A stretch of 64,000 nucleotides of DNA from Tetramitus jugosus (Eukaryota; Heterolobosea; Eutetramitea; Acrasida; Vahlkampfiidae): positions 248,001-312,000 of the forward strand of contig OW569350.1 in assembly GCA_937625935.1 (NCBI GenBank). The letters run 5' to 3'. Position numbers and translations under genes: made by a program. This document shows positions 23,281 through 53,561 of the stretch, in pieces. The notes below the pieces were generated by a model. That model searched no databases and was not told the origin of the DNA. It was given only the letters and a program-made list of their open reading frames with translations. Numbering within the stretch: the first letter of the stretch is position 1; every line of letters starts with the position of its first letter.

Positions 23281-23428
23281 ATACAAAGATGACTGAGAGA
23301 CACCATTACCGTTGCCAGTAATGACGACCTCTCTGTCACTTGGCGCAGAACCTTTCCGTTCACTGAGGTCCACACTGTTTAACGGCTGATGCTGTATTCC
23401 TTCACCAATTTTGGTGAATCACCAGGAG
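23281..23428 (-). pseudogene. 5' remnant of a retroelement ORF1
   Basis: This stretch closely matches 51166-51305, the beginning of the ORF1 gene of the intact element at 50019-51331, in the same orientation. Shared blocks include GATGACTGAGAGACACCATT, TACCGTTGCCAGTAATGA and CACCTCTCTGTCACTTGG with small changes. On the minus strand the frame SDREVVITGNGNGVSQSS is preserved. The first 20 codons carry stops and a shift, and the start codon is lost. Similarity ends abruptly at 23281 with no poly(A) tail, so the 3' part was deleted. It lies about 45 bp upstream of a partial tRNA-Lys sequence, the same relation the intact element has to tRNA-Thr. Confidence 0.75.
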
Positions 23429-23472
23429 TGTGTTTTCGCACGATGAAGTAGTAAAGTTTAGACAGAGAATGT

Positions 23473-23490
23473 AGCCTTCCTAGCTCAGTC
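23473..23490 (+). repeat. Left target-site duplication: 5' end of tRNA-Lys
   Basis: AGCCTTCCTAGCTCAGTC here repeats the first 17 bases of the downstream tRNA-Lys gene plus one flanking A (23830-23847), with a single T/C difference. It is followed directly by a T-rich tract, the reverse complement of a poly(A) tail. This is what target-primed insertion into the D-arm of the tRNA gene would leave. Confidence 0.8.
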
Positions 23491-23555
23491 TTTTTGCTTT
23501 TTTTTTTAATACAACCATTGCGGTTGCTCACTTTATTATCAATACATTTTCATCA

Positions 23556-23578
23556 GCCATCGCTCATTGAGCGATGGC
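23556..23578 (-). repeat. Hairpin 1 in the retroelement 3' tail
   Basis: GCCATCGCT pairs perfectly with AGCGATGGC around the 5-nt loop CATTG. The equivalent place in the element at 49400 (about 49453-49475) has a weaker version of the same stem. Confidence 0.7.
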
Positions 23579-23600
23579 TCTTGGTCTTCTGATTAATTCC

Positions 23601-23625
23601 CAATGACGCTCGCAGAGCGTCATTG
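23601..23625 (-). repeat. Hairpin 2 in the retroelement 3' tail
   Basis: CAATGACGCTC pairs with GAGCGTCATTG over 11 bp with a 3-nt loop (GCA). On the minus strand the TGA stop of the element's reading frame lies in the first arm. The same stem with loop GGA occurs at 49499-49523, and a related stem with a TGACG/CGTCA core occurs at 50096-50125. Confidence 0.8.
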
Positions 23626-23829
23626 CTGTTGTTGCGCTTTTGTTGCTGTGAAGAGGTGAAGGAGAGTCGTGAGAAACAAATGCCATCGATGATGTCACCA
23701 ACGGACTGGTAGCGATTGTGATCAAAACAGCAGAAGCCGGTAAGAAAGCGAAAACCTATGTGAATGGGGTGAGCAAAACGGTCTTTTTGGGGAAATCCTC
23801 CATAGACCCGTAAAATATAATAAACAACA

Positions 23830-49399: not shown

Positions 49400-49999
49400 T
49401 TTTTTTAATACAACCATATCGGTGCTCACTTTATTGTCTCTAATATTCATTAGCCATCGCTCGCAGAGCGGTTGCCCTTGGTCAACATTTTGATTCCCCA
49501 ATGACGCTCGGAGAGCGTCATTGCTGTTGTTTCTCTTTCGTTGTCGTGAATAGGTGGAGGAGAGTCGTGAGACATCTCCGTTTCACACTATTCACGTAAG
49601 TTTTAGCTATCTTATCTGCTGTTGCTGTCTTTACTCCATTTTCTATCAGACCTTGCGCGATGTCGCTGACAGCCTCTGTCTCTACATCCATCTCATTATA
49701 TTCAGCACTTGGTGGGATGTGACTCCAACTTTGCACTTAGGGTACAGGAACTTGAATTCTTTGAGACCCAGTGGCTGTCCATCAACAACTAATTGGTCAT
49801 GGCTGTATATACCTGCTTGGAAAGGCTTCTTGAGCATGCTCAAGTAGATGGTACGTATCTAGCAGGCAGCAATCGTCACATTGGCTTCTTTTGTTGGTAC
49901 TTAGGGTGATGTCATGCGTGTGCATGGGTATTTGACAAACTACAGCCTGTTCCTTTACTGACTCACATTCTCTTCCTGGAATGTTTGGCGAGATGTATG
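49400..49999 (-). mobile_element. Poly(A)-tailed retroelement, 3' portion with unknown cargo
   Basis: On the minus strand the element ends with an ORF tail LTTLLHLFTTTKEKQQQ-stop, an 11-bp hairpin at 49499-49523, AATAAAGTGAGC, ATGGTTGTAT and a short A run (T residues 49400-49406 on the plus strand). Upstream coding pieces read KPFQAGIYSHDQLVVDGQPL, then after a one-base shift HIPPSAEYNEMDVETEAVSD and KIAKTYVNSVKRRC. These are not recognised as RT or endonuclease. Flanking ATCTAAA repeats (about 49393-49399 and 50000-50006) are a possible short target duplication. Before the next element inserted, its 5' end lay about 60 bp from tRNA-Thr. Confidence 0.6.
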
Positions 50000-50002
50000 A
50001 TC

Positions 50003-50018
50003 TAAAATAAGGCTATTA
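50003..50018. repeat. Left 16-bp target-site duplication
   Basis: TAAAATAAGGCTATTA is repeated exactly at 51332-51347. It directly precedes a run of 17 T residues (50019-50035), the complement of a poly(A) tail. Confidence 0.93.
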
Positions 50019-50047
50019 TTTTTTTTTTTTTTTTTCCATACAACCAT

Positions 50048-50070
50048 GTGTGCTTGTTGCGCAAGCACAC
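50048..50070 (-). repeat. Hairpin 1 in the 3' UTR of the 1.3-kb element
   Basis: GTGTGCTTG pairs perfectly with CAAGCACAC around a 5-nt loop (TTGCG). It lies between the AATAAA-type signal and the poly(A) tail. The stem sequence differs from that of hairpin 1 at 23556 while position and size are kept. Confidence 0.8.
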
Positions 50071-50095
50071 GATTGCTCATTTATTGACTTGTTTT

Positions 50096-50125
50096 GTGAG
50101 TGACGACCCGTAGGGCGTCATTCAC
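50096..50125 (-). repeat. Hairpin 2 in the 3' UTR of the 1.3-kb element
   Basis: Thirteen pairs, one of them G-T, close a 3-nt loop with one bulged A: GTGAGTGACG(A)CCC against GGGCGTCATTCAC. The TGACG/CGTCATT core is shared with the hairpins at 23601-23625 and 49499-49523. Confidence 0.8.
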
Positions 50126-50156
50126 TCTTCTTCTCTTGTTGTCCCCGACGGTGCAC

Positions 50157-51305
50157 CTACAGGTTGGAAGAATCACTCTGTTGAGTGGTTTGGTTGATGC
50201 CCTTCATCAAAGGGTGTAACCTTGTAGTAGGACCGTCGATGGACACAGAGCCATCTGTTGTTGTTTTCTTGTTTTGGGCCTTGTTGCTCATCAGATCACC
50301 CAGTGTGATCCTAGCACTCCTCTTCTTGTTGTCATTGAGTTGTGGACTCTGAATCTCCTTTTCGGAGTCGTCATCCACATCCACAATGACTGGTTCGTCC
50401 TCAGTCAAACCATACCTTTTGCGTGCAGCAGCCAGTGCCAATGCAGCAATTTCCTTCTTCACTCTTGCAAACACTGGAGAAGTGGCATTCACTTGCTCCA
50501 GGATTTGCCGATTTTCAGCGCTGAGCTGTACAACAGGCACTGTTGGCAGTGGTGTTGCACTCCTTTGTTTTTCTGCCTCCGTTAGACCAGGAGCAGTACT
50601 TTGTGCAACTTCTGGTTCCGGTATCGGAACCGGTTTGTTGCTCTCTTGACCCTTTGTCTTTGTCAATTCCTTGGTGAGTTCTGTGACCTGTAGACGCAGT
50701 GCGTCAACCACCGTCAGCAGCTCCTCGTACATCTTCGTCAACCTCTTGTTGACAGCCTTGAGAGGATCATGTGGTCTCTCGACGTATCGAGTGACCGTGG
50801 CCTTGACCTTTTGCTCTCCACTGAGCACTGCTCGTGCATAGGTTTCATCACCCATGACCACGAAAGCAGTGTCACGCTTCTTGAGCACACTGGCAACCTT
50901 CTCAGGTCCCAGTAGCTTCTTGATGTCGTCCACTGACATGTTCTTCATGCCATGGACGACCACCTTTCTTGTGCAATCAACACTGCGCTTGGGTGCAGCA
51001 GTGCTGTTGCCAATCCTCCTCTCTTTGTTGAACAACTCAACAAAGTCATAGATGCGGTCACCCTTGACCGTCACCCATGCAACAAAGCGTTGCTGGCCTT
51101 TCCTCTTGATGACCTGGACTCGGTTGAGCCAGTCACCAAACTCCTCTCCTATCTTTCTTGCCAAAGATGACTGAGAGACACCATTACCGTTGCCAGTAAT
51201 GACCACCTCTCTGTCACTTGGCCTAGAGCCTTTCCGTGCAGTGGTCCACACTGCATAACGGCTGTTGCCGTATTCCTTCACCAAATTTGTTGAATCACCA
51301 GACAT
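50157..51305 (-). CDS. Retroelement ORF1-like RNA-binding protein
   Basis: 382 residues from an ATG at 51305. Two RRM-like units are predicted: residues about 30-90 (REVVITGNGNGVSQSS, then a helix, RFVAWVTVKG) and about 110-175 (RKVVVHGMKNMSVDDIKKLL, then TAFVVMGDETYARAVL). A coiled-coil segment (TKMYEELLTVVDALRLQVTE) follows, then a Pro-rich linker and a charged C-terminal third with VIVDVDDDSEKE. RRMs plus a coiled coil are typical of ORF1 proteins of non-LTR retrotransposons, which coat the RNA and act as chaperones, although L1 has the coiled coil first. The frame is intact, so the protein may be expressed. The closest relative in the window is the remnant at 23281. Confidence 0.75.
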   Translation of the reverse strand: MSGDSTNLVKEYGNSRYAVWTTARKGSRPSDREVVITGNGNGVSQSSLARKIGEEFGDWLNRVQVIKRKGQQRFVAWVTVKGDRIYDFVELFNKERRIGNSTAAPKRSVDCTRKVVVHGMKNMSVDDIKKLLGPEKVASVLKKRDTAFVVMGDETYARAVLSGEQKVKATVTRYVERPHDPLKAVNKRLTKMYEELLTVVDALRLQVTELTKELTKTKGQESNKPVPIPEPEVAQSTAPGLTEAEKQRSATPLPTVPVVQLSAENRQILEQVNATSPVFARVKKEIAALALAAARKRYGLTEDEPVIVDVDDDSEKEIQSPQLNDNKKRSARITLGDLMSNKAQNKKTTTDGSVSIDGPTTRLHPLMKGINQTTQQSDSSNL

Positions 51306-51331
51306 GTGATTCCGTTTTTTTCTGCGTTTTT

Positions 51332-51347
51332 TAAAATAAGGCTATTA
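51332..51347. repeat. Right 16-bp target-site duplication
   Basis: An exact copy of TAAAATAAGGCTATTA at 50003-50018, at the 5' boundary of the element and 29 bp before the tRNA-Thr gene. Confidence 0.93.
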
Positions 51348-51376
51348 ATAGTTTCTTGTCCTTTTTGGAGTATTCG

Positions 51377-51449
51377 GGCTCCTTAGCACAGGTGGCAGTG
51401 CGCTGTCCTAGTAAGACAGAGGTCACGAGTTCGAGTCTCGTAGGAGCCT
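51377..51449 (+). tRNA. tRNA-Thr (anticodon AGT)
   Basis: A full cloverleaf: acceptor GGCTCCT/AGGAGCC, D-arm GCAC/GTGC, anticodon stem CTGTC/GACAG around loop CTAGTAA (anticodon AGT), variable AGGTC, and T-arm ACGAG/CTCGT around TTCGAGT. All stems pair. There is no intron and no encoded CCA. A run of six T residues at 51456-51461 is the Pol III terminator. The A34 would be edited to inosine to read Thr codons. Confidence 0.96.
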
Positions 51450-51671
51450 AATATCTTTTTTGTTTGCTTTTGGATATTCGAAATCGAACAGTTGACTGAA
51501 ACGTTGTTCAGGAACTCTGAGAACCATCGAAGAAGCAAACCGCCAGAACTGCCCCGCAACAATCATCCATCGTCACACATCCCCCCATTTCCCCACGAAC
51601 AACAACAACAATAACAAAAAACAAACTCAGCATCTATCCTAATCATCCGACCAATCATTTGTTGTTGAAAA

Positions 51672-53561
51672 ATGGGAAATAGTGCCATCCATAAAGCAGC
51701 GGCCAACAATGACATCAAAACCATTGAAAAACTTTGGAACAAGAAGGCAAATGACAAGAAACGGTTGAAACTAGTCAACAAGAAGGCTCCAGACGGTAAC
51801 ACACCCCTACACTATGCCGTCTACTATGTCAAGGGTGACTTACTAGAGGCTGTGCAGTTCTTGGTTGAACACGGCGCCAAAATCGACGCTACAGACAAGG
51901 ACGGAGATACTCCGCTTCATTACGCATGCAAATATGGAAAGAAACAAGTGGCTCAATACTTGTTGGACAAGGGATCAAAAGCCTATACGATGGTTGTCTC
52001 ACCACAATTGGTCGCAAGAGCTCATGGTCATTTCGAGCTCTCTGATATGATCAATGAATTTGCATCGGAGAATTCATTCGAGTCAATGCAGAGGAAAAAA
52101 AAGGTGTTGGACAGGAAGATGACGATGCGACATGAAAATATTATGAATTTGTTTGCAAAGTTGGACGTGGACAAGAATAATTTGTTGTCCAAGAATGAAT
52201 TGTTGCATTTTATGACGCGATTCAAGGAGAGAGCCAGACAGAGCATTGCACTTGACAAGTTGAATGAGGCGATTGAGACGTTTGATGTGAACAAGGATGG
52301 TCATATTGATCGGAGTGAATGGATTGGGTTCATGAATGCGTTCCTGCAGGGATTCGACGAAGATTATATTCATGTCATTTGTCATGCACTGGTCAAGGAA
52401 CCTGTATTTTTAGATGAGAGCAGTACGAGTGCGATTCAATTGTCTTGGACAGGTGCAGATGTCGATGTAGGTGTAGCGTTTTTTGATGAACAACGACTGG
52501 AATCCGAAGGATCACCACTGTGCTATCCAAAGAGACCTGTTGTGATGAGAGAGGCGGTGCGTCATTATGGATCGGAGCAGAAGCGAATCGATTTTCAATT
52601 GTCTCAAATACCTTCTCATGTCCACATCATGATGATTGAAGTACATAGTACCAATCGGTCAAAAGAGTGGTCCTCTACGCTGTCTATCTATCCGTTGGAT
52701 AGCGAACAAAAAACTCTGCAACATCCACTCTATACTGTATCTATTTCGCCGGATGATCACTCCATGGGTCAACCCTTATTTTTCCTGTGTCGATGCACGT
52801 TGACAACAACGGGAACAACGGGAAGAGACGATAGTACTTGTGATAGTGGTGCAAGTACGACTGCTCCTGTGACACCGAACATAACAGCGACAACAACAAC
52901 AGCATCGAATAACATGTGGAAAATTGTGAATATTCTTCCAATCTATGGCCCACCTTACAAGAAGGAGGCAAAGAGTAATCTAAACTCTTTTGAAATTTTT
53001 GACAATTTCCTACAGAAGCGCAGAAATGTTGAAATGAACATTAGGGGCGCTGTGGGCAGAGTGCGCGTCATATCTGCCAAACAATTGACACCTCCTAATC
53101 AAGGTATCATGACTAGTCGGTACAAGATTACATTTATGGATAAGTTAATAGAAATGGGCAAGTCAGTGCACATGACTGTCAGTCCTGAATGGAACGGAGA
53201 CTACAATACGATTTCACACTCGAAAGACTGTGGAGGTATTTACACCTTTTTGTTCGAAGTTGTGGATCACGACAAGATGAAAGAGGATAACTTCATGGGA
53301 CAGGCAACACTCACGGTTGATTTGAACAAGCAGGACCGAGTCGAATTCAGGAATCACGAACTGGTATTGCAGCCAAGGAAGCGAACAGATGTTGTAACTG
53401 GCTCCATATTCGTCGATATTGATCTCAGGTTGAAAGACATGATGGCTCGTGGGTCAAGACATACTTGCGAGCACTTGGATCTTGAGAACGGATCCTTGAA
53501 TCTCTCTGCCCTCAAAACCAGTTCTAGCAAGCAAGACGTGGACGAAATGTCCACACAATAA
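51672..53561 (+). CDS. Ankyrin/EF-hand/TerD-like/C2 multidomain protein
   Basis: 629 residues, intronless. The N terminus MGNSAIHK fits an N-myristoylation site. Ankyrin repeats follow (DGNTPLHYAVYYVKGDLLEA at about 41, DGDTPLHYACKYGKKQVAQY at about 77). Two EF-hand loops are at about 164 (DVDKNNLLSKNE) and 203 (DVNKDGHIDRSE), the second with all usual Ca2+ ligands. Residues about 250-335 (IQLSWTGADVDVGVAFFDEQ then RIDFQLSQIPSHVHIMMIEV) resemble a TerD domain. After a Thr/Ala/Asn-rich linker, residues about 455-560 form a C2 domain (RVRVISAKQLTPP, YTFLFEVVDHDKMKEDNFMG). It is therefore a likely membrane-attached calcium-responsive scaffold. TerD plus C2 with these partners is an unusual combination; the TerD assignment is the weakest part. 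Confidence 0.8.
   Translation: MGNSAIHKAAANNDIKTIEKLWNKKANDKKRLKLVNKKAPDGNTPLHYAVYYVKGDLLEAVQFLVEHGAKIDATDKDGDTPLHYACKYGKKQVAQYLLDKGSKAYTMVVSPQLVARAHGHFELSDMINEFASENSFESMQRKKKVLDRKMTMRHENIMNLFAKLDVDKNNLLSKNELLHFMTRFKERARQSIALDKLNEAIETFDVNKDGHIDRSEWIGFMNAFLQGFDEDYIHVICHALVKEPVFLDESSTSAIQLSWTGADVDVGVAFFDEQRLESEGSPLCYPKRPVVMREAVRHYGSEQKRIDFQLSQIPSHVHIMMIEVHSTNRSKEWSSTLSIYPLDSEQKTLQHPLYTVSISPDDHSMGQPLFFLCRCTLTTTGTTGRDDSTCDSGASTTAPVTPNITATTTTASNNMWKIVNILPIYGPPYKKEAKSNLNSFEIFDNFLQKRRNVEMNIRGAVGRVRVISAKQLTPPNQGIMTSRYKITFMDKLIEMGKSVHMTVSPEWNGDYNTISHSKDCGGIYTFLFEVVDHDKMKEDNFMGQATLTVDLNKQDRVEFRNHELVLQPRKRTDVVTGSIFVDIDLRLKDMMARGSRHTCEHLDLENGSLNLSALKTSSSKQDVDEMSTQ

Follow-up and report, generated by a model that had tools for sequence, protein, structure and literature searches.

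The closest described relative in behaviour of the element reported here is TRE5-A of Dictyostelium, which, in the accessible parts of two accounts (PMC5911963, PMC5391098), inserts upstream of tRNA genes and in opposite orientation to them, at a distance given as ~40-54 or ~44-54 bp, with 80.2% of insertions falling within 47 ± 3 bp in a tagged assay. According to the same parts of these accounts, TRE5-A targeting requires the B box and the ORF1 protein (ORF1p) interacts with TFIIIB subunits; moreover, the related TRE5-A.2 has no ORF2 and is apparently mobile in trans (PMC5911963, PMC5391098). Alternative TRE5-A targets are given, again in the portions available, as 5S rRNA genes at 37-41 bp. 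NLTR-B of Polysphondylium pallidum also uses a site like that of TRE5, 39-64 bp in front of tRNA genes; it is an element described in the available parts of PMC5006619 and PMC5911963 as unrelated or only distantly related to the TREs.

We analyzed a window of 64,000 nucleotides of the heterolobosean Tetramitus jugosus, in which an element without ORF2 lies just upstream of a tRNA-Thr gene. In keeping with a heterolobosean host, the SAH hydrolase of this genome is nearest to PDB 5v96, from Naegleria fowleri, the identity being roughly three quarters as judged by eye, too low for that species itself. The parts of this locus are as follows.

50019..51331, minus strand: full-length family-A ORF1-only non-LTR retroelement, 1313 bp including the tail, aligned over near or whole length to many copies at 90-98%, with a 16-bp target-site duplication (TSD) at both ends
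50157..51305, minus strand: ORF1, 382 aa, with an RRM-like domain (residues 33-105) and a coiled-coil-like helix (residues 181-218); purifying selection across copies
50019..50035, minus strand: poly(A) tail, 17 nt
50036..50085, minus strand: 3' tail with AATAAA, a hairpin (GCAA..TTGT) and ATGG; RT-coding families have a similar tail
51306..51331, minus strand: 5' leader, 26 nt, opening with AAAAACGCAG
50003..50018, no strand: TSD copy 1
51332..51347, no strand: TSD copy 2
51376..51450, plus strand: tRNA-Thr(agt) gene, the target (ARAGORN)

An earlier note on this DNA had described exact 16-bp duplications, a 17-nt poly(A) tail, an intact 382-codon ORF and no enzyme gene, with a tRNA-Thr gene 46 bp away in opposite orientation; all of this holds: ORF1 is present and ORF2 absent, and the 5' end of the element is 44-46 bp from the divergent tRNA-Thr(agt) gene by ARAGORN. 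Using the ARAGORN limits, the tRNA start is 28 bp from the nearer TSD edge and 44 bp from the 5' end of the element, which points toward the gene. The note had also seen two RRM-like units and a coiled coil in the ORF product, of which one RRM-like domain and the coiled-coil-like helix were recovered and the second RRM unit was not. Past residue 110 the fold prediction of ORF1 is mostly of low confidence, and most fold matches span residues ~15-111. The 3' UTR comprises 121 nt, closing with the hairpin and ATGG, and is followed by the 17 A.

When 40 of 163 candidates were scored across the 56 contigs (26.3 Mb) of this genome, family A, to which the window copy belongs, displayed at least 58 DNA matches, which rules out a single-copy sequence; at least 40 DNA matches, window copy counted, were 832 bp or longer with 90-100% identity. 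An ORF1 protein search gave at least 113 matches in family A and a second family, B, many of them fragmentary, and 34 of the 35 matches covering residues 1-382 were free of stops. For the study of flanks we used 39 A copies, composed of the best 30 DNA rows, 8 loci from the best 30 protein rows, and L066; these are the best-scoring copies, and older ones are under-sampled. Six of the 39 (L003, L023, L027, L028, L029 and L030) are without a full ORF1, yet the DNA match of L023, L027, L028 and L029 is otherwise long or full-length.

Purifying selection on A ORF1 was evident from a median dN/dS of 0.27 (quartiles 0.22-0.32; 380 of 406 pairs with dS>0.03), calculated on the 29 of 39 copies giving an ORF of 375-395 aa; L005, L020, L044 and L047 are absent from this set because a longer or neighbouring (B) frame was picked by the script. 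Five A ORFs have an identical ORF at another locus (L010/L013/L021 and L045/L046), indicating recent activity. Family B encodes an ORF1 of 414 aa with ~50% identity to that of family A and, where seen, is likewise ORF1-only, its own tail and poly(A) lying in L005 within ~130 nt after the ORF; long open ORFs are retained in both families. A and B are ORF1-only families that have diverged to ~50%, and the ORF1 of A has been kept under selection.

The distance and orientation of the copies relative to tRNA genes, a check put forward in the earlier note, proved non-random. A tRNA gene lies 35-48 bp off the 5' end in 24 of the 39 A copies, with a mean of 43.25 and SD of 2.56 (mean and SD were drawn from 38 of the 39 copies, without L066, and the distance of L004 was taken from the BLAST start). 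The tRNA species involved are Thr, Asn, Met, Arg, Val, Asp, Gln, Lys, Gly, Ser, Tyr, Leu and Pro. The TRE5-like preference for about 50 bp upstream of tRNA genes that the note had pointed out is confirmed by 23 of these 24 copies, located at 40-48 bp. Its proposal of tRNA-gene targeting is supported as to tRNA genes and too narrow, since 5S rRNA genes are targets too: four further copies (4/39) lie by a 5S gene, at 39 bp (L006), 44 bp (L017), 37 bp (L027) and 39 bp (L046). As for the remaining copies, L052 has a tRNA gene 5 bp away, L007 a degenerate one ~42 bp away (33 bits, covering model positions 9-63), eight immediately follow another element's 3' tail (L005, L008, L016, L020, L023, L024, L025 and L060), and L030 is 5'-truncated.

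All 30 near Pol III genes on the 5' side of A copies run on the opposite strand from the element, as do the further 5'-side tRNAs, 597-1336 bp off, of the stacks at L008, L016 and L024. Three copies (L012, L018 and L029) have a tRNA gene on the 3' side too, 444-1025 bp off, which, like the 5-bp distance of L052, counts against the targeting reading. The chance of 28 or more of 30 informative A copies lying 30-50 bp upstream in the observed orientation is ~1e-82, under a null with over-generous gene numbers (1593 and 772 first-look candidates). A random spread of the copies examined is ruled out by the tRNA and 5S distances, the divergent orientation and this null.

We also counted from the side of the genes, using 53 of 63 listed tRNAs (the 10 on C54 and C56 were dropped) and 157 element places from which small or overlapping fragments were omitted. 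An element ORF occurs within 3 kb upstream of 14 of the 53 listed nuclear tRNAs, all 16 matches being divergent, and within 3 kb downstream of none of the 53. Among the 47 5S genes listed, an element ORF within 3 kb was present upstream in 4 and downstream in 3, the latter being elements or stacks seated at tRNA genes (L019, L044 and L078). No listed element lies within 3 kb of the two U6 genes, which are expected to be Pol III genes, a result that counts against the reading. The 47 listed 5S genes are spread over many contigs and mostly separate, with no single tandem array. C54 and C56 carry tRNAs at identical coordinates and look like duplicates of one organelle genome, probably mitochondrial.

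The TSDs of A copies are mostly 12-18 bp long. Matches of at least 12 bp were found by script in 29 of the 39 copies, some of which extend into A-rich or element letters (the true TSD of L014 is maybe only 7), and the TSD of L004 is visible by reading. TSDs and poly(A) show that integration occurs by target-primed reverse transcription. No nick-site consensus past a weak T|A was observed among the 29 TSDs, thus the DNA letters do not account for the site.

The note had suggested a search for a longer relative carrying RT and endonuclease with the same 3' 120 bases; a longer relative with RT and a similar 3' end was found at L065. This is a complete LINE whose ORF1 (~340 aa) overlaps an ORF2 of ~1285 aa; the latter matches RVT_1 (E=3e-25), has a weak match to Exo_endo_phos_2 (E=0.0011, 19.2 bits, below the curated cut-off of 27.4) and a weak, below-cut-off match to zf-RVT, and gave no RNase H match in the domain search. 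The element sits ~45 bp from a tRNA-Leu(tag) gene, with the TSD GGTCTAATAATA at both ends, a poly(A) and no LTR, and its 3' end reads ...GCAACAATTGTTGTATGG followed by poly(A). The 3' ends of A copies are GTTGTATGGAA or GTTGTATGGAAC, and that of L065 is GTTGTATGGAA plus poly(A). A ORF1 is homologous to L065 ORF1, with about 27-32% identity. The RVT_1 profile matched at 73 places in the genome, and in 15 cases the match lies in an open frame 1116-1318 aa long; among the matches listed there is no RT-coding element with an A- or B-type ORF1, the nearest aligned autonomous ORF1 being that of L065. The RT clade search found distant relatives only: the nearest solved RTs are R2 proteins, and 8c8j, presumably human L1 ORF2p, was a weaker match for L062 only.

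The 3' ends of A, B and RT-coding families consist of AATAAA, a GCAAC...GTTGT-type hairpin, AT(GG or T) and poly(A). The list of tails was gathered by a pattern containing GTTGTAT, the independent ends being those of A copies (alignment and TSD), L065 (TSD) and the window relic at ~49400 (reading). The hairpin was the best fold in 22 of 23 folded tails (the exception is L021b), and its apical stem is longer in A and B.

A wider set of 19 ORF1-bearing relatives was taken from ORF1 protein matches; L085 was picked knowing of the adjoining tRNA, and C12:207119 and C42:154173, which have A or B sequence directly upstream, were left out together with fragmentary matches. An RVT_1 match is present within ~5 kb downstream in 18 of the 19, C8 being without one. 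Sixteen of the 19 sampled 5' ends adjoin a divergent tRNA gene, and 49-87 nt (mean 65) separate the tRNA from the beginning of ORF1 or from its first conserved motif. L075 and L083 are behind the tail of another element, and L070 is by an unnamed small gene-like stretch with a T run on the sense strand of that stretch; the placement of L070 away from any recognised Pol III gene counts against the targeting reading. This stretch, which has no Rfam match up to E 5, is possibly an undescribed Pol III RNA gene. Two copies of it, 9.5 kb apart and 83% identical, are located at L070:55-215 (C16:364524-364684) and C16:355014-355176. Introns of 12-24 nt are predicted in the tRNA genes at L065, L069, L072, L074 and L078 (Leu-tag, Cys, Thr-cgt and two Glu-ttc).

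Elements are frequently stacked. Of 38 A loci, 19 have element-coding sequence in the 1.4-kb 3' flank, in the same orientation in 18 and opposite in L030, and 10 have it in the 5' flank. Three insertions at L066 have common TSD letters, and GGTCTAATAATA is common to the A copy and the autonomous LINE of L023/L065. At L030:1-2573, an RT-element ORF2 (its last 361 bp 94.7% identical to L025) joins A seamlessly from A nt 236 and ends in the A 3' tail; this chimera of helper and A could reflect template switching involving the helper and A RNAs, or a deletion between stacked elements.

Taken together, we propose, with a probability of roughly 85%, that A is a LINE lineage with ORF1 only, which the LINEs of its genome mobilise in trans, and that its integration is directed upstream of Pol III genes, probably via TFIIIB. 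The ORF2 protein (endonuclease/RT) that autonomous LINEs of this genome encode would recognise the 3' hairpin and poly(A) tail of A and copy its RNA; trans-mobilisation via this hairpin is suggested by the similarity between A and LINE 3' ends. Insertion, by target-primed reverse transcription, is at a set distance in front of Pol III genes, where the cue would be the assembled TFIIIB complex, contacted by ORF1p or ORF2p. The internal promoters of tRNA and 5S genes are different and TFIIIB is common to both, which makes TFIIIB the most likely cue. ORF1p may serve as tether or chaperone, and A would have retained ORF1 because the protein is needed, probably in cis, for A mobility. Each later copy would enter on the gene-proximal side of the earlier ones, making the arrays grow, an order of arrival suggested by the nested TSDs.

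The position could also be explained if the endonuclease recognised the DNA sequence or a bent, T-rich conformation in the flank upstream of Pol III genes, without any contact with TFIIIB. T-rich sites are often preferred by APE-type LINEs, and the weak T|A at the nick of the 29 TSDs agrees with this; however, the TSD sequences lack a consensus, and the flanks of tRNA and 5S genes differ whereas the distance is about equal in both (35-48 bp), so that we consider such direct reading unlikely. Another possibility is that A is a passive SINE-like passenger whose ORF1 was inherited and is not used for its own movement. TRE5-A.2-like elements do borrow ORF2p, according to the available part of PMC5391098, and the six A copies without full ORF1 include four that are long or full-length by DNA, but a median dN/dS of 0.27 over 29 ORFs, and the long open ORFs retained in both A and B at ~50% identity, are hard to reconcile with an unused protein and render this quite unlikely.

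Selection acting after insertion would produce a bias toward harmless spots as well: integration might be random, or mildly biased to open chromatin, with survival only of copies upstream of Pol III genes, and a compact genome (26.3 Mb) would purge insertions in genes. Nevertheless, selection alone does not explain a single orientation and an SD of 2.6 bp, nor the absence of element ORFs within 3 kb downstream of the 53 listed tRNAs, and copies with identical, hence young, ORFs (L010, L013, L021, L045 and L046) are already at the same position; we therefore judge it very improbable. Finally, domestication of ORF1 is known from L1TD1, in the part of that literature available, and A and B might by the same token be immobile host genes or a domesticated ORF1 family, an explanation that is scarcely credible given the TSDs, the poly(A) and the nearly identical copies scattered among different Pol III genes; TSDs at independent loci rule out a host gene.

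The proposal of trans-mobilised A elements directed to Pol III genes can be extended, tentatively, to one in which A and B are long-lived diversified lineages with a targeting/chaperone protein of their own, borrowing the enzyme only, in which the ~44-bp seat also supplies the promoter, and newcomers displace, and perhaps silence, older copies. Bearing on the supply of a promoter are the 26-nt leader of the window element, the 49-87 nt between tRNA and ORF1 in the relatives, and the fact that copies are oriented away from the Pol III gene.

In comparison with TRE5-A.1 and TRE5-A.2, as presented in the accessible parts of PMC5911963 and PMC5391098, the A system is similar in distance, opposite orientation, 5S targets and an ORF1-only partner without ORF2. 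The endonuclease-RT-zinc-finger order of ORF2 also resembles that described, in the portions available, for TRE5-A, although two of the three domains are weakly matched here. The host lineage differs from that of TRE5-A.1 and TRE5-A.2, being heterolobosean, and the leader of A has 26 nt whereas TRE5-A is described in these portions as having an A-module with promoter activity. Unlike TRE5-A.2, there are here at least two diverged ORF1-only families (A and B), and, with A at only ~27-32% identity to L065 ORF1, they appear to be no simple deletions of any autonomous copy found. NLTR-B, in the available parts of its description, has separate APE, RT and RNase H ORFs, in contrast to the single ORF2 of L065 (~1285 aa), in which zf-RVT was matched weakly and RNase H not at all in the domain search. 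By analogy, the A system would work like TRE5, and we file it apart from TRE5 membership.

Like A, the HAL1-type half-LINEs of mammals are ORF1-bearing LINE derivatives without ORF2, and, unlike A, they do not to our knowledge target Pol III genes. Utopia LINEs insert inside the gene and have a restriction-like endonuclease. Small-RNA genes as safe sites are a feature shared by Utopia and the Dada DNA transposons (PMC3706591, PMC8869645, PMC4640811, in the parts available), Dada differing as a DNA transposon that inserts inside the gene. In yeast Ty3, TFIIIB interaction likewise serves as a guide, as stated in the accessible part of PMC5911963, but Ty3 is an LTR element with integrase, inserted within a few bp of the transcription start.

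We found no report of Pol III-gene targeting by LINEs in heteroloboseans in the titles and abstract openings listed by searches of the open-licence literature. Naegleria is not mentioned in the accessible parts of PMC5911963 or PMC5006619, and for N. lovaniensis 190 LINE copies are reported with no mention of targeting in the available part of PMC6125883. The kind of system is already known from dictyostelid TREs and NLTRs; new are the host group, the double target of tRNA and 5S genes outside dictyostelids, and the diverged ORF1-only families with very short leaders. If our proposal is true, the strategy of TRE5, in which a LINE finds a harmless place via the Pol III initiation complex, is also used in a host probably far from dictyostelids. 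The partner pair would split the roles, A with ORF1 only and the helper with the enzyme, and would thereby open to experiment the long-standing question of which protein, ORF1p or ORF2p, recognises the Pol III complex.

Within the window, stacking is seen twice, at the tRNA-Thr gene and at the tRNA-Lys gene, with the following parts.

49400..49991, minus strand: 5'-truncated RT-element remnant behind the A copy, comprising the C-terminal end of ORF2, the 3' hairpin tail and poly(A); by blastn, 49400-49681 is 92% identical to L075 and 49693-49991 is 83% identical to L066
48537..48623, minus strand: short further RT-element remnant, farther back; ORF2 residues 1252-1280 at 83%, blastn 93% to L022
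23831..23903, plus strand: tRNA-Lys(ttt) gene, second tRNA of the window
23491..23785, minus strand: 5'-truncated RT-element remnant ~46 bp upstream of tRNA-Lys, with a like 3' tail; blastn 96% to L016 over 23491-23674, and 23675-23785 by reading
23284..23438, minus strand: relic of an A-element 5' part behind the RT remnant at tRNA-Lys; blastn 88-90% to A copies

Between the RT remnant and the A relic, positions 23456-23490 (minus strand) resemble the 5' end of tRNA-Lys and may be what is left of a second tRNA-Lys gene. On the other side of the tRNA-Thr gene, a 629-aa protein is encoded at 51672-53561 (plus strand), starting ~220 bp past that gene; its product has a 98% identical JGI metagenome protein and is ankyrin/EF-hand/C2-like by the Pfam domains of that homologue.
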